The translations under genes were made by a program, and so were the position numbers. The notes under the pieces are model-generated. The model saw only the letters and a program-made list of their open reading frames with translations. It was not told the DNA's origin and did no database searches. Below, piece after piece: positions 45,501 through 59,700 of a stretch of DNA of 64,000 nt (its first letter is position 1; each line of letters starts with the position of its first letter). The stretch comes from Dipylidium caninum (lineage: Eukaryota; Platyhelminthes; Cestoda; Cyclophyllidea; Dipylidiidae), in contig QEYB01001208.1 in assembly GCA_017562135.1 (NCBI GenBank), positions 62,001 to 126,000 on the forward strand, given 5' to 3'.

Positions 45501-47418
45501 TTTTTGTAAATGCATCAAAATTTAGACTGAGTCAGAAGACATCTCATTTTCCTTGTCACTGTCGCTCCTTTTCTGTAATGCCTGGATCATTTTGCCTGCT
45601 GAAAGGATGTTAACCGGACTGAATGGAAAAGCAGACAGTTGCGACCTCCTCAGGCGCATAAATGTAGCGCCAAGCGTTTCAACAGAACGGTGTCTTTGAA
45701 GATTGAACGCCTTCCTGCCCATCTTTCGCCAACACTTCAAAGGAAGCACGTTCCAGTAGTCTTACATAACATAAAAAGCGATTTTTGCGGTGCACTAGCG
45801 TGCCGTCAGACGCCACGCCAGGCAAGACGAGAAGTTGGCAGCCACGCACTGGCAAGCTTGAGTCCTCCACTTCCCGACGACAATGGAGGCCCACCAAGGG
45901 CGGTGCAGGCCACGCCAGACACCACATCGAGCGAATAGCGCTTCGCTGCTGGCTGCTCACAGGCAGCTCGCAGTCGACAGAGTTGCTGCCATGCGTGGAG
46001 AGGAGGATTGTGAGGAGTGGAAATACCTCCACATCGCCAAACCCTCCTCGACCCCGCAGTAGTGCCAGGTAAATAGCCATCTTGAGGAAGTACAGTTAGG
46101 CGAAGTCTCTAAGCACGAAAACACACGTCTCTTCGCAATCTGATAGGTGTGGTTGAGGACAAGTTAAAGCGGGGTGGACATTTCAAAAGGATAACTCAAA
46201 TTTTTTGCCCCACCTGAAGTGCGCTCTCAAAAGGCAAGCTCACACTTAACCGTCATCTATAATTTCGGTGGATAATGTCTCTCGCTCCGTCCACGTCAAA
46301 CACAAAGTGGACTGGTCGCTGCAGAATAGAATAAGCACAACCTTACGGAAAGATTCGCACAGCTACCGCGAACCTGTGATCAGGGAAGGGGGAGAAAGCA
46401 GCATATAACCGGCCATTTCGCAAAGGTTACTTGGGGCAGAACCCCGTGGGGCGTGGATTTCAGAGTGCTGTGAGTCCCCCACAGTACATTGCCGTGAAGG
46501 GCAAGCGAGCGGCCGCTGCTGCGAGAGTGGCGGACGGGCGCGTCAAGTGAAAAGCGATGCGCCGACGACGTTCCTGCCATGCGGACGGGGGCGCTCGAAA
46601 TGAGATTCAAAGTCTGGCCGCAGGAGCAGCTCAACAGCACCCCAAACCATAGTCAGAGCTTCCAACCCACCTGGTCTCCTCGAGTCTTCTGCTAGTAATT
46701 TGTTAATTTGGGCCGACAACTTGGAGCCTTAGCCAGTGACTGAGCCCAGATTATTTTAACGCTTGTCCGTACGCTGATCCACCCTTTAAACTCAGAACAG
46801 AGAATCTCCTTCAAGTTTTTTCATTCTAATCGGTGCAGAACCTCTAGGAAAGTCGGCACCGCTCGGTCGAATGGACCAGGAAAAACAACCAGCCAGTTAG
46901 CCATTCTTGCGGCCTCGAAGAGTAATAAGTTACCACACGATTAACTGCTCCCCCACCTAACTCTAAGAGCTCCTTGGCGTTAACCGTGAGGACCTGGTTT
47001 CCCACGCCTTTCCGGCGACAATGGATGGCGTTTGTTGTACGAGTTCTAGGTGACGTGGCCGCAGGGGCCGCTGCAAAAGGCAAAGGCTGACGGGAGCGTC
47101 AGCGAAGTGAGCTAAGGGGAAATGCTCGGCCAACTCATCAATAAATCCTTTTGGTAATTTAAAAGTAAAAGTGCAGTTTCGTGCTCATTACACGTGGTGG
47201 ATGTTGATCACTGATTGGCCGGCAGTTAGGGCAGAAGCCAGGCCGTTGACCGTGAGGCAATTAAGAAACGCTCAAAAGCGCAGGGGCACCGAGTCGCCTT
47301 GACGCATTCAGTTAAGATTACGGCCAATTACTGACACGAAGCAGGAGGCGCTCCGATTAGTGAGGAGTGTAGTTGAGTACCCAAACCGCCCGCCTTTCAA
47401 GCGAGTTAGTTAAAGTGA
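42511..47418. other. Intergenic region, no gene resolved
   Basis: Several 70-130-codon open frames overlap on both strands without recognisable domains or a consistent splice pattern. A plus-strand AATAAA-containing stretch lies near 43372, about 860 nt after the stop of the upstream gene. No RNA genes or repeats were recognised up to the left inverted-repeat arm. Confidence 0.4.
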
Positions 47419-47720
47419 TCAACCGTCTGCTGTGTGGGTTGGCTCCACGTCCACACCGCCACGTCTGCGCACTCCACCCCACACCGACCACCGAGGCGAG
47501 GAGGAGCTACGTACCCTCCCAACGCCCCAACACCCCAACACCCGAGCACCCACTCACCCACTCACCCACCAAAGCCCCACCCCTCCCCGCCCCGTCTCGC
47601 GGTGCCACTCCAGCCCTGCCAACTGACAAACACCATGGCTCGCGTCGGGCGTTAATCACAGCTGCATTGAGGTGGGCGTCGGTGGTAGTGAGCGACTGAC
47701 CGAGCTGGGGTCTGGCGGCC

Positions 47721-47769
47721 TCTCGGCATCTCGGCATCTCGGCATCTCGGCATCATCTCGGCATCTCGG
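47721..47769 (+). repeat. 9-bp tandem repeat (TCTCGGCAT) in the left arm
   Basis: About five copies of TCTCGGCAT, one interrupted by an extra CAT. The right arm has at most one copy at the matching place, so the expansion happened after the arms were duplicated. Confidence 0.85.
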
Positions 47770-48503
47770 CCCCGCCGCCCCGCCGCCCCGGACCCGCTCG
47801 CCACCTCGTCTGGCGTCGCGAGTCTGTGGGTCGGGCGACCAGTCGGGATCTGGATGTGGGTCACGGCGAGGGCGAGGGCGAGAGGGCGAGAAAGCGAGGC
47901 AGAGAGAGAGAGAGGGGAGGAGAGGAGAGAGGAGAGAGAGGGAGAGAGAGAGGGAGACCGAGTCGCACCATTTGGCGGAAAGGGTGGGAAGTAGAGGCAG
48001 CCTCTCACCCGAACGCTGTGAGGCAAGACTTTGTGCACTGGTTATGCATCAACGACTCTCTCACCTTTGCTCAGATGCGAATGGGCGGGGTTTTAGCGGC
48101 ATCGCAGTGTCCGGGGGCGGAGCGAGCTTCTTCGCCGACGACAAGGTGGAGGCGGTGCCTCGTACATCGTTTTTCCGGTGGTCGTTTGCACTAAGCATGA
48201 AAACCAGTCGTCACCGCCCTGTACACGAAGCTTAACGAATATCTAACGTCATCATTTGAGCGCTTTCTGGTGTCAGATCGTAAACTCTGTGAGTGTGTCT
48301 CGCATAAATTATTTATTCCAAATGTGACCTCTCATTCGACCCCCAATTCCCCCTGAATATTTCACCTCCACGTATGCAAAATGATGTCTTCTTTCCGACC
48401 AATGCTCTCGTCGAAGTGGTGACAAAACATTTTGCTCCCCCAACTGCGTGTTAATCTCGGAGATATCTTGGATGTGAGGGAGTGGGAAAACGCTTCCCTA
48501 TCG

Positions 48504-48560
48504 TATGCGTATGCGTATGCGTTTGCGTCTGCGTCTGCGTTTGCGTCTGCGTCTGCCTCT
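48504..48560 (+). repeat. GCGTMT hexamer repeat in the left arm
   Basis: Tandem GCGTAT, GCGTTT and GCGTCT units. The right arm carries a shorter version at about 55620-55670, so copy number differs between the arms. Confidence 0.85.
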
Positions 48561-48745
48561 GATCTGCCACTTGCCCTCAGCCCTGCGCTCTGCGGGGCTG
48601 CTCGAACTCTCCACTTCGCCGAGCCACCATAAACTAATCATACCGACCAGGCTAATAGGGGAGCAAATGGGGACCGTGTTGGAGGACTTCATCCCGATTT
48701 GTACGGATGGCAGAAATGAGAAGAAGGTGGAGTCGAGCGCTCGTG

Positions 48746-49454
48746 TTCTCGGCAAGACCATGCGTGGTGTATCAAGAGACGGCCTGCCCTGAAGTGCGCC
48801 GCGGTGCGCCTCCTCCTTCCCTACGCCCAACTCTTCCTCTGCGAAGTGGCGTAGCCAACCCGGTGATATCTCCCATCCCATGACAACTTTATCACAGACG
48901 CCTGCTGCTCGTGGAGTTCTGGATGGGTGACCCTGTTTTACTGCGCACACGGCCTCCTAACGGCTCCGCGTATGACCGTCTTGGGCAGGGATATGAGTTG
49001 TGAGCGGCTAATGCTCCCAGGTGAAAAAAAGCATGGGAAGAAGAGGCGCGCAAGGACGGGGGAAGGTAAACTGGGCAGGAATGCTTGGTAGCCACATGCC
49101 TCAAATGCGCTCTTCCCTCACCTCTTAAAATCATTTATTTTCCCACAGTGGGTGGTAAAAGAGTCCTCTTCTTGGTGTTATGCGGTCACACATAAAAGCT
49201 ATGGGAAACTGGTAAAAATTATTTTAGCATTTGAACGCTTCAAGGTAACACTTGGAAGACTGTAGGAACCTGATGTGCTAAAAGGTTCTCCACTTTGACG
49301 CTCGGAATGACACCGGCCGTCGCTCGCCCCATGCCCCTTCAGCCGCGTGCTCCTGCATGGCTGCGAGGGCGCCACTGGGCGTCACGGACTCAGGAAGATC
49401 ATACACAAAGGCGTCTATTCGTTGAGCGTCCCAGCGCTACAACGCATCGAGGTG
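48746..49454. other. Spacer between left arm and the tetraspanin-DCST gene
   Basis: Single-copy sequence between the inner edge of the left arm and the poly(A) signal of the enclosed gene. No coding segment was recognised. GTGGAGTTCTGGATGGGTGACC near 48910 briefly recalls 5S rRNA but the rest does not match. Confidence 0.4.
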
Positions 49455-49460
49455 TTTATT
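49455..49460 (-). promoter_or_regulatory. Poly(A) signal of the tetraspanin-DCST gene
   Basis: AATAAA on the minus strand 23 nt after the stop codon at 49483, a close and convincing position. Confidence 0.7.
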
Positions 49461-49482
49461 CTTGTACATTGTTTCCAAACTT

Positions 49483-52400
49483 TTAAGGGTATCCTCCAAA
49501 CTGGCCCCCGTTGCGGTCTAGGCAGGCGACGCAAAACTCCGGGTCGTCCGAAATCCCCAACTGGCACTGGCGGCAGGTTGCGCAGGCGTCCACCGGACAA
49601 ATGTACATCCCCGGGCCCGGCTTCTGCACGTCCCGACAAATGACGCACGTCCCCTTCCTCAACTTGGCCACTTTCGCCAGCTTGGGCATCGCCTCCGCCA
49701 ACAGAGGCGGCTTGGAAAGCAGACGCACCTCCTGTTGCAGGCGATTTTCCCGGACACGCTGAATGAGGAGGTTTCTGTGCGTGCTGAGATCCCTCGCTCT
49801 GTTGGCCAGCATGGTGTTGTACAGGTACATCTGCCGCCTGCGGTGGGCGATGGGGTAGAAGAAGCCAGTGACGACGTGACGCAGGCGTAACAAGTAGCCC
49901 GAGGAAATGCCGAGCAGTAGCAAGGTTGTCCACAATATGCCAAATCTTACTCTCAAGTCGTATGACGAGAGGATAACCTTGGGAGCACAGGAGCTCAACT
50001 TGTAGGAGAAGTCGAGATTCATCAGATTAAGTAGGCCATCCAAAATGCCTTTGACCAGCTCCCGCGGCGAAACCGTCGCCGGCGAAGAACATTGCAGCAG
50101 CTGCAGTGTCGGACTTCCCGGTGCTTCCGCCCAACCGCAGCTCACCTTGTGTGACCACGTCCAGCACCACCATGAGACTGTGCAAGTAACTGTCGGCGAT
50201 GAAGAGCATCGTCAGGCCGATCCCCAGCACGGTCGACTTAACAACGGCTGTTGCGGCCCGCACCCACTCGGCTTTGGTGTATCCCAGTTTGTGCCAGAAG
50301 ACAGTCTTCCTCTCGTGGGACTTCAGTGGCAACAGGTACATACGCGACTCCTTCTTGCGCCTCTCGTCTATCTTCTCATATTCGTCCTCCACGTAGATGT
50401 TGTCAAAGTCCATGTCTTTCAAGTAGTTTGTTATGTACTTTTGTGTTTTGATTAAAAGAATGAGGAACAACAACTTTAGCAGGGTGGAGAAGAGGAGAAT
50501 GATGGCGAAAATGGCTCTGGTGGCGTCCAAAGTCAGGTACCCGAGTTGCTCGATCGCGTCCTCCGCCTTGTGACTCAGCGCGCTGACTTGCGCAGCCGCG
50601 CTCTTGAGTTTCCTGTATCCCACGACAATTTTGAAGTTCTCCGCGAACTGCTGAAGACTCGACTGCGCCACCGCGAAGTGCACGCCGAAGCCGTCCTTCA
50701 GTCCGATGCTGTAGCCGCTGCCGCCGCATTCGCTCTTGGCCTTTTCCAGGGCCTCACCAGTCGGACATGCGGTGCCCTTCGTCACATAGGAGGCGCACCA
50801 GGGCCCGATGAAAAGAGGCAGACCGGTGGTGATGACAGCCGAGGTTTGTATGCGGTAGCAGGCCGTAACGGCGGCCACATTGCACTGCTCGGTGCGGGCC
50901 TGCTGCATGGCCACACAGGCCTTCGTGAGACGAGAGCGCATGTTACTTTCGATCTTATTGCCTTTGAAAAGGGCGCTGTTGAGAATTTTGCTCTCATTGA
51001 AGTTGAGATTGAGGTTCTTCACCGCCGCATCCATCTTGGCTTTCAGCATCCTCCTGCGTAACCGCATGCGCTCTCTCTCCGAGACGTCCAGCTCCTCGAG
51101 GTGGCGACGGAAGGACTCGGTCACGCCCGCGTTCGTCGCCTGGATGTCCGCCTCCACAGCCTTATCAGTGACATTCTGCGGAGGCGGTGCAGCCTCACTG
51201 TTTGCATCAGGCTCCTTCGTCAACTAAACACAAGTAATAAAGCGGTTAGCTTGATGGTGCCCGGTAGGCTTCTCCTCGACTAATTCAGAGAACTGTTTCG
51301 TCTGTTATCTCAAATTCTGCCCCACTTAGGCTCCCGTTGTCCGATTTGGTGCTCGCTAGCTACTCTCGCAAAATATCAAGCGAACAAATCCAACGGCACA
51401 ATGCAAGGATGAAGGGGAGAGAAGAAGAAAAGAGGTGGTCATCATCCACTTCGTTCGTGGGCGAGGTGCCTCGGCTTATTACGAGCTGACTCGTGAGTCA
51501 AAAGCTTCACCACATTAATCAAATTCCATCTTGCTTGAGTGTGAATTTATGCCCCTAGAAACGAATTAAAGGCCACCTTCAAAGAATAATTAACAGGCGA
51601 TTTGGTAGAGAAGGGACAGACGAAAATGTGGAGAATGACAGAAGGTCTACGACTGAAAACGACGGCCGAAATGCCGGGGCTGCGGCCAGCACTGCGTAAA
51701 CCCCACCTGAACCGCAATAACCACAGCAAATGCATTCACCAAGGGGAGGAAAAGCCACTGTGGCCGGTTTGAGGCACCCTGGGCAGAACGAATAAGCTCC
51801 ATTGAAAAACAGGGCAGACAAATTAGAACGAAACAGTGAGGAAGAAAAATTCACATTTAAAAAGTTGACATCACTGCTTTGTCAAAGTGTCAAGTGCAGT
51901 TGGGTACCGCACTCATTTTTCTCCAAATTTTTGTAACGTCCGCTTGGTGCTTCTGTTGGGGAGGAGCCAACAAAATGCTGTTTTTGGTTTCTTCGACAAG
52001 GTGGATTCACAAGTGGCGGCTACTAATGAACAGCAAACTGGTGGTTGCCAGTGCCAGTGTCACAACACAGTTGGGTCGGAATAGGGAACTTGGGAGTCGA
52101 CCATTGCCAGGGCATTTAACCGGTGGAGGTCGCCCTGGCAAATGATCCGCTTATCCGCGGGGCAGAGGCAGAAGCCGCTGAGATGCGGGCTTAAAAGCGG
52201 GAAAGGTGGACGCCGAATGCGGCGAACGGCCGCTCGGGTCGCGCCAATGGACGCGGGTCTGCTAATTGCGGGCTGCCAGTCGATGCGGCACACGCCGTCG
52301 CCCGACTGAGTGCTTTGACGCGGCTTTGTTCGCCCAAGCCCCTGTGTCCACGTCTAATTAATGCCCCTACGTAATGGGACGGAGGAGATGTGCGGCAAAC

Positions 52401-55050
52401 AAAGGACTCACCTCCGCGTGAACCTTGTCAGTGAGTTTTCGCAGTTGGGACGCGCCTCGTCTTATTCCCCTTGACGCCATCTTCATCACTTTTTCGAAAA
52501 ACTTGTGGAAACCCGACAAATTTTTGAGTTTCGGATACTTAACCGACTTGGAGCTGTCATTGCGTCCTTCGATTTGCGTGAAGTTCTGCTGTGTAGCATT
52601 CAGGTGTGGGTCAACGCCAAATTCTTCATCATCCTCTTCGTCCTCCTCCTCCTCTTTCTCTTCCTCCCCCGTCCCGATATCCTCCTCATTTATCTCTCTA
52701 CCGCTCGGTTTCAGCATCTGATTGGCGTCATTGGTGATGTTACTAGCCAACTTCATCAGGCAGTTGAGCGAGCCGCCGGCGGCCCTCAGGTTGGTGGCCA
52801 GACCGCGCACCGGTCCGTAGACCGCGACGTTTGCCAGTTCGGCAGCAATGAACGATTGACCGGCTGTTAATCCTAAATTTGGTCCCAGAAGAGCTAGGAA
52901 GCAACGAAACCTCCTGGAGATGATTGCTGCTATAACGAAGATTATTCTTACGAGAATGCTCGTCATGTAAGCCAGCTCCTCGACTATTTGTTTGCGTTCT
53001 CCGGCATCGCTGACAACGCTTATGTTTTTTGCGATGTCGCCCTCCGCAGAATTTGCCTTATATTTAGTAATGAAAGCGGAAATGAGGATATGAGCCCCGA
53101 AATAACCGTACAAGCCACAACAAATCACTCGAACGACTGCTGCCGTGAAACCGCCGTAGAAGTCGTTGCCTTCCACCTCGTGTCTGGAGTCCCCGTCCGT
53201 GTAGAGGACGGCCTCGACGAGGGGCAGATAAGTGCGAAGGAATCGGCGAAGGGCGCTGGATTTAATCTGACCGGGGGCTTCACACCGTCTGGTGTATATT
53301 CGACGAATGTATTCGGCGCTTTGTTCTCCATTATTCCTCAAACACCAACCAATTCGCATTCTCTTCTCCACCCAGTCGGCCTTGGCACTTCCATGCGCCT
53401 CCTGCAGTTTCACCGTCTGCGAGAGGAGAGGGGTGCCTTGAATAGCCTGCAAAAGTCTGGCATTCGATATATACTTCCACTTCCTTGGGCGATTAACCCC
53501 TCCACTGGAGAGAGGTGGGTCCCTGTGACGCTCGACAAAACTCCCGATGAAGAGGCAGACATTTAAGGAGACGTCAATCAAAATAGTGGTTTTCAGAAAG
53601 TCATAAAATTCGGCGAGGACTCTGTCCCCCACCGCCTCGATGCAGCCTCTCTGAAATACGGGCAAGTCGGCGGTCAACTCCGTCTGTGGGAGACCCTTCA
53701 GCGACTGTTGCAAGTGCCAAATCCGCTCCTGTGTCAGCACGGGATTCTGGCGGGGATCGAGGCAGCTGGCCGGAATGTAGACGTCACCTGCCGCCGGAGA
53801 CCACGCGGAGCCGTCCGAGCCCGGCCGAAGGGCGGCCCAGTCCGCAATGCTCGTAGCACCGCAGCACGCGTGGCCTCTCTGGACGCCTTCCAGGTAGCGC
53901 AGGAGGCTTCCCCTGTCCCCCGCCGCCTGCAAGGGTGCAGAGCACAATCTACGCCGTTATGCACACCGTCTAATTTACCAACTCGGTGACGAGTAGTTCG
54001 CCAAAATCTCTTTCATGTGAAGAATGAGGGGAAATGTTTGGGCTTAACGTTTGCTGCAACGAAATGCCTCTTTGCAAAGCAAGGAGGAAAGAAGGAGAAA
54101 GTCATGAAACTGAGTGCAATAATTAACATTGCTGGGAGTGAATTACAAGTGAAGTGGAAGTGTTTCCTCCATCCTTCTTGTCTACTAATTCATGTGGAAA
54201 CCTCAACTTTTAGAAATTTGCTGGAGAAGAAGCAGGAGGGCTTGCGACGAGATGGCGAATGCTGGGCAGACGTTCGGTTGTTCCACCAGCTTCCGTGCGG
54301 CTTGCCCCAAAAACTCCCGCCGCCTGCATCAGCTCCGCAGCCTCGTCGTTGCGCACCTCCAGCGCCGCTCCCCTGCCTCCCCTGCACGTGCTTCGTGCAG
54401 GGGAAATGGGCGTCTGAAGGCTTGTCTGCGACTGCCCACTGCGACCTTTCAAAGTCGCCTGGCACAGGTCGGCTTTTAGCGCCGTCTTTTCAAACTGCCA
54501 ACTTTTTGTTTGCCGCGCTTATACTTTTATTCGGGTATTAAGAGGAAAAGGAGGAGATGGTAGATGAAGGCAGAGAACGCAATCCAAACGTACCCTCCTG
54601 TGGGAATTCGTTGAGAAGCTGGTGAAAGACACGAGTGAAGAAGTTTGCGACGTCAATCTTAATGAATCCCGTTTCCTCCCACGCCAGGATGGCTGAAGTC
54701 AAGCTCGTCATCAGCAAAATTATAGTCAGTGGACGCGTGAAGTAGCTCCACACAGTCCATAAGGCGCTCCTCAGCAGGACCCTTTTGCGCTGCGGAAGCC
54801 TTCGACCGAGGAGCGTCGCGAACAACTCCACGAGGCCCGCTGAGGCGAGCAGAGCCACGACTGTGCATTCAAAGTAGAAGAAGGCCAGCGAGCGCGTGAG
54901 GACGCGGTCTGGCGTGGCGAGCTGCAGGCCGCCGACCCGCAGGCGGCGCGATGAGGCGAGGGGAGGGTGCCAGGCCAGGCCGAGGTAGCTGTTGCATGCG
55001 ATCGCGGCGAGGAGGAGCAGCCTGAACAAGGCGACCGGCGCGAAGACCAT
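49483..55050 (-). CDS. Tetraspanin fused to a DC-STAMP/DCST1-like membrane protein, 4 exons
   Basis: Predicted exons 55050-54594, 53886-52412, 51223-50146 and 50048-49483 join in phase into about 1,191 residues. Residues 1-270 form a tetraspanin: TM1 (AIACNSYLGLAW), TM2, TM3, a large loop with CCG (160-162), Cys194 and GC (233-234), then TM4 (about 248-271). About 125 residues of linker follow. The DC-STAMP-like part then begins with TM segments near 397-425 and 461-480, and has RRFRCFLALLGPNLGL, an acidic stretch near 570 and a Cys-containing outer region. It continues with DMDFDNIYVEDEYEKID, RMYLLPLKSHERK, further TMs, FYPIAHRRRQMYLYN and a RING-like tail with Cys 1138, 1141, 1154, 1159, 1162, 1165, 1176 and 1179. 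DCST proteins act on sperm in gamete fusion and tetraspanins organise fusion-competent membrane. The exon 1/2 acceptor was chosen by phase: the stronger TTGCAG at 53927 would break the frame, so CTGGAAG at 53887 is used, giving QEGVQRGHACCG. No stop separates the halves. Confidence 0.85.
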
Positions 55051-55086: not shown

Positions 55087-55440
55087 GAATTATCGATTCC
55101 TTCCTGAAAATATTCGATTTTAATGAGGTTTAAACGCACTCTGCCAATCAGACGTGTAACCGGGCGTCATCGGTATCATCACGGCTTCTTTTAGCCAACG
55201 TGTACCTGAACCGCGCGTTAGTCGCATCTGGCCGGATGTGCGGCAGTGTTAAGCTGTCAGCGGAGGCCCGAATTTTCCCTGAACCGCTGCAATTACCTGA
55301 CAAGTAAGTTCCAGGAACAATAACAAAAAGTAGCTTTTCCTTTTTGGCCGGTGTCGGGGCTGGTGAGGGGGCATCGCGCAGGGGCAGACACACCCGCCTC
55401 TCGCCGGAGCACTCTGCCGCAGAACCAAGGGAGCTGACAA
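55087..55440. other. Upstream region of the tetraspanin-DCST gene
   Basis: About 390 nt separate the start codon at 55050 from the inner edge of the right arm. The promoter must lie here, in the arm, or further out. No clear TATA box was seen on the minus strand. Confidence 0.4.
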
Positions 55441-56700
55441 AAACGCGCGCTCGACTCCACCTTCTTCTCATTTCTGCCATCCGTACAAATCGGGATGAAG
55501 TCCTCCAACACGGTCCCCATTTGCTCCCTATTAGCCTGGTCGGTATGATTAGTTTATGGTGGCTCGGCGAAGTGGAGAGTTCGAGCAGCCCCGCAGAGCG
55601 CAGGGCTGAGGGCAAGTGGCAGGAGGCAGACGCAGAGCAAACGCAGACGCATGCGCATACGCATACGCATGAAGCGTTTTCCCACTCCCTCACATCCAAG
55701 ATATCTGGCAGATTAACACGCAGTTGGGGAGTAGCAAAATGTTTTCGTCACCACTTCGACGAGAGCATTGGTCGGAAAGAAGACATCATTTTGCATACGT
55801 GGAGGTGAAATATTCAGGGGGAATTGGGGGTCGAATGAGAGGTCACATTTGGAATAAATAATTTATGCGAGACACACTCACAGAGTTTACGATCTGACAC
55901 CAGAAAGCGCTCAAATGATGACGTTAGATATTCGTTAAGCTTCGTGTACAGGGCGGTGACGACTGGTTTTCATGCTTAGTGCAAACGACCACCGGAAAAA
56001 CGACGTGCGAGGCACCGCCTCCACCTTGTCGTCGGCGAAGAAGGTCGCTCCGCCCCCGGACACCGCGATGCCGCTAAAACCCCGCCCATTGGCATCTGAC
56101 CAAAGATGAGAGAGTCGTTGATGCATGACCAGTGCACAAAGTCTTGCCTCAGAGCGTTTGGGTGAGAGGCTGCCTCTACTTCCCACCCTTCCGCCAAATG
56201 GTGCGACTCGGTCTCCCTCTCTCTCCCTCTCTCTCCCTCTCTCTTCCTCTCTCTCCCTCTCTCTGCCTCGCCCTCGTCCTCTCGTCCTCGTCCTCGCCGT
56301 GACCCACATCCAGATCCCGGGTGGTCGCCCGACCCACGGACAATCGCGACGCCAGACGGGTGGCGAGCGGGCCACGGGGCTGCGGGGTGGCGGGGCGGCG
56401 GGGCCGCGATGCCGTGAGGTCCCCACACCCCAGCTCGGTCAGTCGCTCACTACCACCGACGCCCACCTCAATGCAGCTGTGATTAACGCCCGACGCGAGC
56501 CATGGTGTTTGTCAGTTGGCAGGGCTGGAGTGGCACCGCGAGACGGGGCGGGGCGGACGGGGCTGGTGGGTGAGTGGTGGTGGGTGCTCGGGATGTTCGG
56601 GGCGTTGGGGCGTTGGGAGGGTGCGTAGCTCCTCCTCGCCTCGGTGGTCGGTGTGGGGTGGAGTGTGGACGTGGAGCCAACCCACACAGCAGACGGTCGA
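55441..56700 (-). repeat. Right arm of the long inverted repeat
   Basis: This is the reverse complement of 47419-48745. It shares the same outer edge (CAGACGGT at about 56690-56698), the GA/CT-rich block (56215-56270), the identical core (about 55750-55998) and the hexamer repeat. It lacks the 9-bp expansion of the left arm. It lies on the 5' side of the enclosed minus-strand gene, so part of it could serve as promoter (inference). Confidence 0.88.
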
Positions 56701-59700
56701 CCACACCCGCCTACGAAGAGGTGGTGGGAGAACCACGCCACCGCCCTCTACGTCAGTCAGAGGCCCCACCAACTTCCCTTCGCTTCGCGACACTCTGCTA
56801 GTGCAGAATCGCCCCAGGCCGCGCCTCAACCGAGTTTACACCTGCGTCTGTGGCTACTTCTCCACTTTTCATTTGTAACTATAATGGCGCTGGGAGGAAC
56901 TTCTAATTATCGTGATTTTCTGTCTCTTGTCGTAATCCATTTGCCTCAACATCCTCCCAAACTGTTTTGCCATTTTCTCGAACTTCTGTTTTTTAATTAT
57001 GCCCCACATTCGCCATAAGTGAGGTTGGGACAACACTCAGACCGCCTGAGTTCTTCTCCCACCGAGGTACAAAAGACCGCATCCTGTGCCCGCAGCCCCA
57101 CACTCCGCTGGCCGCGCGCCGGTCCCGATTTGCCTCAGAATGGGTGCTGCATCTCGCCGATTTCTCGAGTTGTCTGCCTTTTTTGTCAAAATTGCCTTTT
57201 GAGGGAATGGGAAAACACCTTATTTTCTTCTTTGCCAAATTCAAAAAATTGACTCCATCAAAGCCAATCAAATTACCCCCTTGAGATCCCTCCGAGACGC
57301 CCGGGAAAATTAAATTTAAAGTAATCCAAGTACGCCAAGTAGAAAAGACAATTATCTCAGGGGGATTCCGCTTCTCCCAAACTCATTCCCCTTCTTTTCT
57401 CCTCATTTGCTCAACATCCGCTCCTCGGAATTTCCTCCTAATTTACTGGGACGACAGGTCGGCCCTGCACGAGTTGAATTGGAAAGGGCAGGTTCATACT
57501 CGGTGTTCATGGCTGTGCGCAGCCCGTGCGGAGTTCCGTGGCGCCCCCGCAACCGACGAAGGGTGGCGTCCTGGCGGGGGCTGGGAACCGCCTTCCCGGC
57601 TGCCGGCGGTGCGATGCGACTTTGCCGCCCGTGGACAGGTCGAGCTGCGCCCGACCGGGGTCCCCTGTTTTTGCCCTCCCGCTTGTTGTGCCACTTGTCG
57701 GCAGGTTAGGACTCGGTGCTGCGGCTTGTCCGTTGTTACATTGGACGGGGCTGGCGGACTCGGCGTTGGGCTGTTTGCATGAGATATGAATTTTGGAGCG
57801 TTTAATCCCAGTCAATTAATTTCAGTACCCCCCCCCGCCCGCCCGCCTTTCCTCTCTCTCTCCCTTCCTCCCGCGTCCTGCATCCTGCTCCGGGCGGGCA
57901 AACTCGCGTAGCCTTTCGTGTTGCCGGTCTACACCAAATGAGGAATAATTTCCGACTTCCTCTCGGTCACAGCAGAGCCCTCCCCTTCCCGTCCACTCCG
58001 CTGGTGACGGCACGGAGGCGTTGAAGTCGTGTTGAACACGGCAGTTTAAATTTAGTCCATCCATTGTCCCCGCCTGAATTAGAATCTCTATTCTCAGCAG
58101 TCCAAATCACCTCACTTTGTCCGCATAGCCACCAAATTTCCCGTCATTTGCTAATCCGACTCCTCCTCCGTCTGGTGACATTTCAGCGTGGTTTTTTGGG
58201 CCATAGAACTTGGCTTTGTGCATCAGTGTCGCATTCAAAGCAGGGAGTAGTCTTACCTCCACACTAGACTGCGAACTGCGTTCCTTGTTGAGTCCTCAGA
58301 ACCGCAGAACTTTTCATCCTCACCTCCACTGTCCACCTCCAATGCATTCGTGACCAGAAAGTGTGGAGAAAGGCCAGAATATTTCACGAAAGTCGCATTC
58401 TCCTCCTCCACCTCTTCCGCCCTTCGAAATGACATTTGGGCCCGAGGGAGACGCGGGACTGTCAGCTTTCGTCCTACTCAACGCACACTTCAACGCGTAT
58501 TTGGTTACACGAAATTCCTTTCATTGAAGAAGACGACCCGAGGAAGGGGAGATGAGTGGAGGCTTTTCGCGTAGATTTACCTCAATAATCGACTCGAAGA
58601 ATTTACCAAATTCCTCTAAAACCCAATGTAAAACCGTGTCGATAAACTATGAACCTTCGGGAAGTGGTGAAGCCCATAATAGAGGGAAAAGACGGGGCCG
58701 CACGCTCATAAATTAGACATCCCAAATGAGGAGTTCTCTCCAAAAACGCCTATCTTCCCGCAATTACGGTTACGCTTCATCCGAGAAGCTTCGAGCGGCG
58801 TACCTCCTTCGGAGCAAAGCAGACAAAGGTGGCACCCTGGAGCACCGGCGATGTCTGCTTGTCCTGCTGCCCCCGAGGCTTCGGACACGTCGGTGGTGTC
58901 ACTCGCTGATTGAGTTCTCGCCGCGGCTGGGGAGAATAACTTGGCGGTCTTTTACACTCACATGCGAATTAGGCCCTCGATGTGGCTCGAAGGACCAGAA
59001 TCGAGCGACTGGTAATGACTGGTTGTAATTGAGCTAATTGAGCGAATCCACCCCTCGAATGCCAGCCAGGTCGGCCCCATTCCTCCTGCAGCTGCATCGG
59101 CGGCTCGACTCCAGTCGCTCCCACTTCCAGCCGTGCCCACGCGCGCGCGCGCCCAGCCGGGGCTGTAAACGATTGTCAGGACGGGAGGAGGCGGGGCGGG
59201 GGCGGGGGCGGGGGCGGATGTGTCCACTTGCCACCGCCCCCTCGTCTGTTCTTCCACCTCCACTCGCGACGCGTTGTATCCCCGCTACCCACTTAGTTCA
59301 CTTTCCTGCTCTCTTAAATGAAATTCTGCGACGTCCATTAACTCTTTGTTTATGGCGGAAAGTACAGGCGTGACGAGGCGGATCCGCGGGAGCAGGGAGG
59401 AGGCTAATCACAGACGCATTCCATTTAAGTGAGAAGAATATCCTTGTTTTGCCCTGACTCCGCACCGGAAGGAAATATCCGCGAGACATGGATCACGGAG
59501 CTAAATTAAATTATCACTTTTCAGTAAGATATCCCCCTCCTCTTCTTCCATACTGTAAAAAAGAACACCTCGCATGCCTGTTTTGATCCCAGACGAGTGG
59601 GAATGGGGTGCGCGCGGCTTCCTCGGCTGGACGGCCCCTTCGCGTGCCCAAATGGGTATTCTCTGTGATAATTGGCTTTGTGCTAATGAAATTTACACCT

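Follow-up and report, generated by a model that had tools for sequence, protein, structure and literature searches.

In the tapeworm Dipylidium caninum, a gene on the minus strand almost certainly encodes a single polypeptide in which a tetraspanin is joined to a protein of the DC-STAMP family. The gene lies in a window of 64,000 nucleotides (contig QEYB01001208.1, here C394; the window is C394:62001-126000) from a genome of 106,277,105 bases in 920 contigs. The product would be one membrane protein, made of a four-pass tetraspanin, a variable stretch of about 20 residues, a conserved one of about 105, and then a DCST1/2-type protein. We moderately favor the explanation that it is a factor for sperm membrane fusion which carries its own tetraspanin partner. 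An earlier, preliminary description of this DNA had proposed the joining of the two families and a four-exon model on the minus strand; the layout used here, in window positions, differs from that model in part, and P0001 denotes the predicted protein of Echinococcus multilocularis.

Exon 1, 54590..55050, minus strand: start codon, tetraspanin transmembrane segments 1 to 3 (TM1-TM3) and the start of the large loop, in an open frame.
Exon 2, 52412..53912, minus strand: the rest of the large loop through to the first membrane segments on the DC-STAMP side, with an acidic stretch; 500 open codons.
Landmarks in exon 2, minus strand: CCG motif at 53866, TM4 from 53599, conserved block from 53473, DC-STAMP-side membrane segments from 53155.
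Variable linker, 53474..53533, minus strand: about 20 residues from TM4 to the conserved block; identity to E. multilocularis is 5% across 20 columns.
Exon 3, 49437..51223, minus strand: DCST ectodomain, DC_STAMP domain and C-terminal RING, with two one-base frame jumps inside, as placed by tblastn with P0001.
Coding stretch, 50049..50145, minus strand: called intron 3 in the preliminary description; relatives align across it.

The joint between the two halves lies within exon 2. The open reading frame carrying it (52367-53956) has 529 codons, and the 500 codons that belong to the exon are free of stops; when the bases of the exon were shuffled 500 times, the longest open run was 216 codons, versus 500 in the real exon. 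P0001 spans the joint in a single alignment (53905-52409, 64% identity, 500 columns). On the minus strand, no AATAAA occurs between 54525 and 49461, the nearest ones being at 54526-54531, just within intron 1, and at 49455-49460. What had been described as 125 linker residues is not uniform: only about 20 residues are variable, and the following block of about 105 residues is 76% identical between the window and E. multilocularis (106 columns), with TM4 at 50%. A local merging artefact was rejected because the two halves meet inside a single open exon, and 15 of the 19 flatworm relatives listed have the joint too.

These relatives come from three protein searches, which gave 21 distinct proteins among the matches listed: 19 from flatworms and two others, from a tick and a mussel. 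By precomputed Pfam annotation, PF00335 (tetraspanin) and PF07782 are found together in 15 of the 19 flatworm proteins, from five tapeworm and seven fluke species, that is, in 12 species besides the window. The fused tapeworm proteins are from E. multilocularis, Taenia crassiceps, Anoplocephala, Rodentolepis, and Spirometra; the fused fluke proteins are from Calicophoron (2), Echinostoma, Fasciola, Paragonimus (2), Trichobilharzia (2, one of them under a truncated source name), Schistosoma rodhaini, and Clonorchis. The earlier claim of one polypeptide is supported by these predicted proteins. When Pfam was run again on eight of nine intended proteins, all seven flatworm proteins were above both curated cut-offs and the tick protein had DC_STAMP only; neither of the two non-flatworm relatives listed has a tetraspanin domain.

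Unrooted trees were built for each module separately, with 16 rows for the DC-STAMP module and 13 of 16 for the tetraspanin module (three rows shorter than 200 residues were dropped). Both trees contain the same three groups, namely tapeworms (support 100 in the tetraspanin and 100 in the DC-STAMP tree), fluke group B (98 and 100), and fluke group A (just 77 and 71). In both, the window sequence is within the tapeworms, beside Echinococcus and Taenia. The simplest reading would be a single fusion event before the split of tapeworms and flukes, with a doubling seen in flukes only. The locus tags of the two Paragonimus proteins, EG68_02980 and EG68_02981, suggest neighbouring copies. Fluke group B is marked by a longer linker with HRTGS-like repeats; in P0008, P0010, P0011, P0012, and P0014, repeats resembling HRTGSxTHxDGS occur in the linker that joins the tetraspanin and DCST halves.

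Two fluke records also point to neuroglian: the predicted Dicrocoelium protein P0013 includes a neuroglian-like Ig/FN3 part in the same record, and the Fasciola record P0011 is named Neuroglian. Gene-model merging or neighbouring genes probably account for this. The idea of a shared synteny with neuroglian was dropped, as residues 1-980 of P0013 match nothing in the window at E values up to 1.

The assignment of the DC-STAMP half to DCST1/2 is supported by several marks. The DC_STAMP domain is found by Pfam in the 1,191-residue protein of the preliminary model at 6.4e-22, above the cut-off, and its matches in exon 3 are at C394:112165-112407 and C394:111819-112058. Six cysteines of the ectodomain and seven of the C-terminal RING are invariant in 16 of 16 aligned rows; the RING itself gave a weak Pfam match, below the cut-off, in two flukes. 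SPE-42 is reported to have six conserved cysteines in its large ectodomain and a C-terminal RING with eight cysteines (PMC3053230), and DCST1/2 a RING with six invariant cysteines (PMC8989947). The cysteines of both regions match the marks of the family, in agreement with the likeness proposed earlier. About five membrane passes were flagged by hydropathy in this half, and its comparison with PDB sequences gave no convincing match. The half shares the DC_STAMP domain, the six invariant ectodomain cysteines, and the cysteine-rich C-terminal RING with both DCST1/Sneaky/SPE-49 and DCST2/SPE-42; unlike these, the flatworm protein is preceded by a full tetraspanin and the conserved block of about 105 residues. 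The likeness to DC-STAMP/OC-STAMP consists of the DC_STAMP domain; those two proteins are reported from vertebrates only, DCST1/2 being the sole members of the family reported in invertebrates (PMC8989947). Another domain added to a DC-STAMP protein was seen in P0021 of Mytilus californianus, a DCST2-like prediction with SH3 domain matches.

Within DCST1/2, the half is probably of the DCST1 rather than the DCST2 type, with 95.6 bits for the window gene to tick Sneaky vs 66.1 to mussel DCST2. Several points count against this call: it uses just these two reference proteins; the two score higher against each other (127-129 bits) than against any flatworm protein; and the scores to tick and mussel nearly tie for Spirometra (91.1 vs 88.4 bits) and Clonorchis (84.9 vs 81.1 bits). 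With near ties in two of the four flatworm proteins compared, the DCST1 label is a lean and not a proof. The sole other DC_STAMP locus in the genome is at C349:37360-37981; the pieces of this locus reach 53.4 bits against mussel DCST2 vs 4.0 against tick Sneaky, and by these scores it is a separate DCST2-like gene, which was not seen joined to a tetraspanin. None of the 22 tetraspanin matches in the genome is on C349, where the start of the gene lies outside the model. In the surrounding minus-strand region (L017, C349:33000-42900), this second DC-STAMP-family gene has a RING-like stretch, followed by long open frames.

In the tetraspanin half, Pfam matched PF00335 in the same 1,191-residue protein at 5.4e-7 and 29.9 bits, slightly below the cut-off of 32.1, and exon 1 by itself gave no Pfam match. 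Tetraspanins are defined by a CCG motif and two to six further cysteines in the large loop (PMC4464875). The window and five tapeworm rows have CCG and two more, and 10 fluke rows have CCG and four more. All 16 of the 16 rows keep four invariant large-loop cysteines, the totals being six in all 10 fluke rows and four in all six tapeworm rows. TM1, TM2, and TM4 of the window protein were flagged by hydropathy; TM3 fell below the threshold, yet it was flagged at the equivalent place in E. multilocularis. Identity between the window and E. multilocularis is 42% in the tetraspanin half and 76% in the DC-STAMP half (921 columns); judged from these values, the tetraspanin half is the faster evolving of the two.

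The kind of tetraspanin was sought with a profile of 17 relatives against PDB, which best matched peripherin-2 (3.9e-16) and ROM1 (5.4e-12), followed by CD63 (2.9e-7) and then Tetraspanin-15. The earlier comparison with CD9/CD81 was not supported: both are absent from the matches of this profile at E values up to 1, and what they share with the flatworm protein is being tetraspanins with a CCG loop. Two single fluke proteins had a best match of peripherin type (1.7e-5 and 0.0034), and Tetraspanin-10 was the best, weak match of P0001 alone (0.7) and of the window exon alone (0.014). The loop pattern CC...CC...C...C of peripherin-2/ROM1 is present in the 10 fluke rows. The differences are that the six tapeworm rows have only four loop cysteines, that the window exon by itself does not single out peripherin, and that the flatworm tail continues into a DCST protein. 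We tentatively consider the tetraspanin half to be of the RDS/peripherin type, a signal that the flukes may drive.

No description of a tetraspanin-DCST fusion was found in the titles and opening parts of abstracts among the top matches listed, from a body of literature in which subscription journals were mostly outside coverage. Passages from PMC1913519, PMC8830517, PMC5620054, PMC8055269, PMC5927768, PMC8989947, PMC11052572, PMC3534613, PMC3053230, and PMC4464875 do not mention one. In Opisthorchis, a DC-STAMP homologue and tetraspanins are named separately (PMC1913519). The earlier statement that no described fusion of this kind is known agrees with these matches; it needs the qualification that the domain pair is already in databases through automatic annotation, for instance as 'Tetraspanin EC2 domain' or 'E3 ubiquitin-protein ligase DCST1'.

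A role of the fused protein in gametes is reasonably likely by analogy with known proteins. DCST1 and DCST2 are reported to be required on sperm in mice and fish (PMC8989947, PMC8055269), and fish sperm without one of them lose both proteins (PMC8989947). In mammals, CD9/CD81 are described as egg-side proteins; DCST1/2 work on sperm (PMC11052572). The fused protein may act on sperm as DCST1 does elsewhere, paired with DCST2, at the fusion of sperm and egg membranes. Its tetraspanin module would serve as a built-in cis partner, which may hold, shape, or cluster the membrane of the contact or fusion site, and the faster-changing tetraspanin loop may bind the egg or other partners. Both ends of SPE-42 are predicted to be cytosolic (PMC3053230), and the C-terminus of a tetraspanin is in the cytosol (PMC4464875); therefore, the joint requires no change of topology. 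Two predicted structure models were too poor to reveal contacts between the halves, and fold searches gave weak support. For the first model, the VIA row that ranked highest was apoA-IV; BAR and dynamin-type rows were set aside as common helix arrangements.

DCST1/2 are fertilization factors common to vertebrates and invertebrates, and the fused protein is a defined membrane-fusion candidate for tapeworms and flukes, whose tegument is maintained by cell fusion. If the proposal is true, the fusion names a tetraspanin as a candidate partner of DCST1 on the sperm of mice, flies, and nematodes. A wider version, in which DCST1 and a tetraspanin act together in cis across animals and the welded flatworm protein, doubled in flukes, serves both gamete and tegument cell fusion, is unlikely.

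The four exons of the preliminary description translate into 1,191 residues with no internal stop, and this much of its frame stands. Its intron 3 is coding sequence, and its stop at 49483 lies behind the second of two one-base frame jumps. The tblastn segments with P0001 run from the 51223 side to 50063, from 50061 to 49510, and from 49505 to 49440. The first jump is near 50062, at a run of three G, where the alignment ends at 50063 and resumes at 50061 in the next frame with P0001 residues 1044 and 1045 adjoining; the second is near 49509, in a run of five G, and beyond it the reading frame in agreement with P0001 and P0002 leads to a stop at 49437. Relatives without the two jumps exist. At the other end of the gene, the 3' end of exon 1 may be 54590 or 54594, and the 5' end of exon 2 may be 53912 or 53886. 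The preliminary description had used 53886 for its exon 53886-52412, which is open as stated; that start loses residues kept in relatives (LLQYLESIQRGYRCCG in E. multilocularis). A start at 53912, joined to a weak donor near 54590, seems to fit the relatives better, which is not certain.

The frame jumps and the awkward joint of exons 1 and 2 raise the question of whether the copy in the window has been damaged, as a pseudogene of a real fusion family. Flanking the jumps, identity to E. multilocularis stays high (73% and 82%), as it does across the whole DC-STAMP half, the P0001 search finds no second copy in the genome, and the jumps are at G runs, although a run of three is short. Assemblies often err in single-base runs. 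A pseudogene is quite unlikely. It is important to consider also whether two tandem genes or transcripts were repeatedly merged by automatic annotation. Several observations weigh against a single protein here. All flatworm relatives are gene predictions, and merging does occur, as in P0013 with its neuroglian-like part. Conservation of exon 1 is weak (36% identity with residues 5-151 of P0001), and four of the 15 fused models listed (P0002, P0004, P0016, and P0017) are without part or all of TM1-TM3. Four of the 19 flatworm proteins listed have no tetraspanin domain by Pfam: the model of P0003 begins inside TM4, those of Mesocestoides P0006 and P0007 begin in the DC-STAMP half, and P0013 has a readable CCG loop with the domain unlisted. 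Tandem genes would nevertheless have to account for a joint that lies within one exon without a stop or AATAAA, over which E. multilocularis aligns in one piece, and which occurs in 12 further species among the matches listed; we regard them as very improbable.

One protein with a role in the body wall is a different matter, as it accepts the fusion and would place it where progenitors fuse with, or shape, the syncytial tegument of Neodermata. All 19 flatworm proteins listed come from tapeworms and flukes, fusogenic tsp-2+ progenitors are reported to renew the tegument (PMC5927768), and DC-STAMP itself is reported in osteoclast and giant-cell fusion (PMC8989947). The known DCST1/2, however, work on sperm. 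Free-living flatworms are not among the matches listed, but candidates needed exact words shared with the query, so the protein searches cannot prove absence from that group. A tegument role is rather unlikely, and the proposed sperm factor with a built-in tetraspanin partner is preferred.

The fusion gene is flanked by inverted copies of 1.3 kb at 47415-48747 and 55440-56704. When 751 bases of one arm were searched against the genome, only these two places matched. The two copies are 90% identical over 1341 columns, with blocks of 96-100%.

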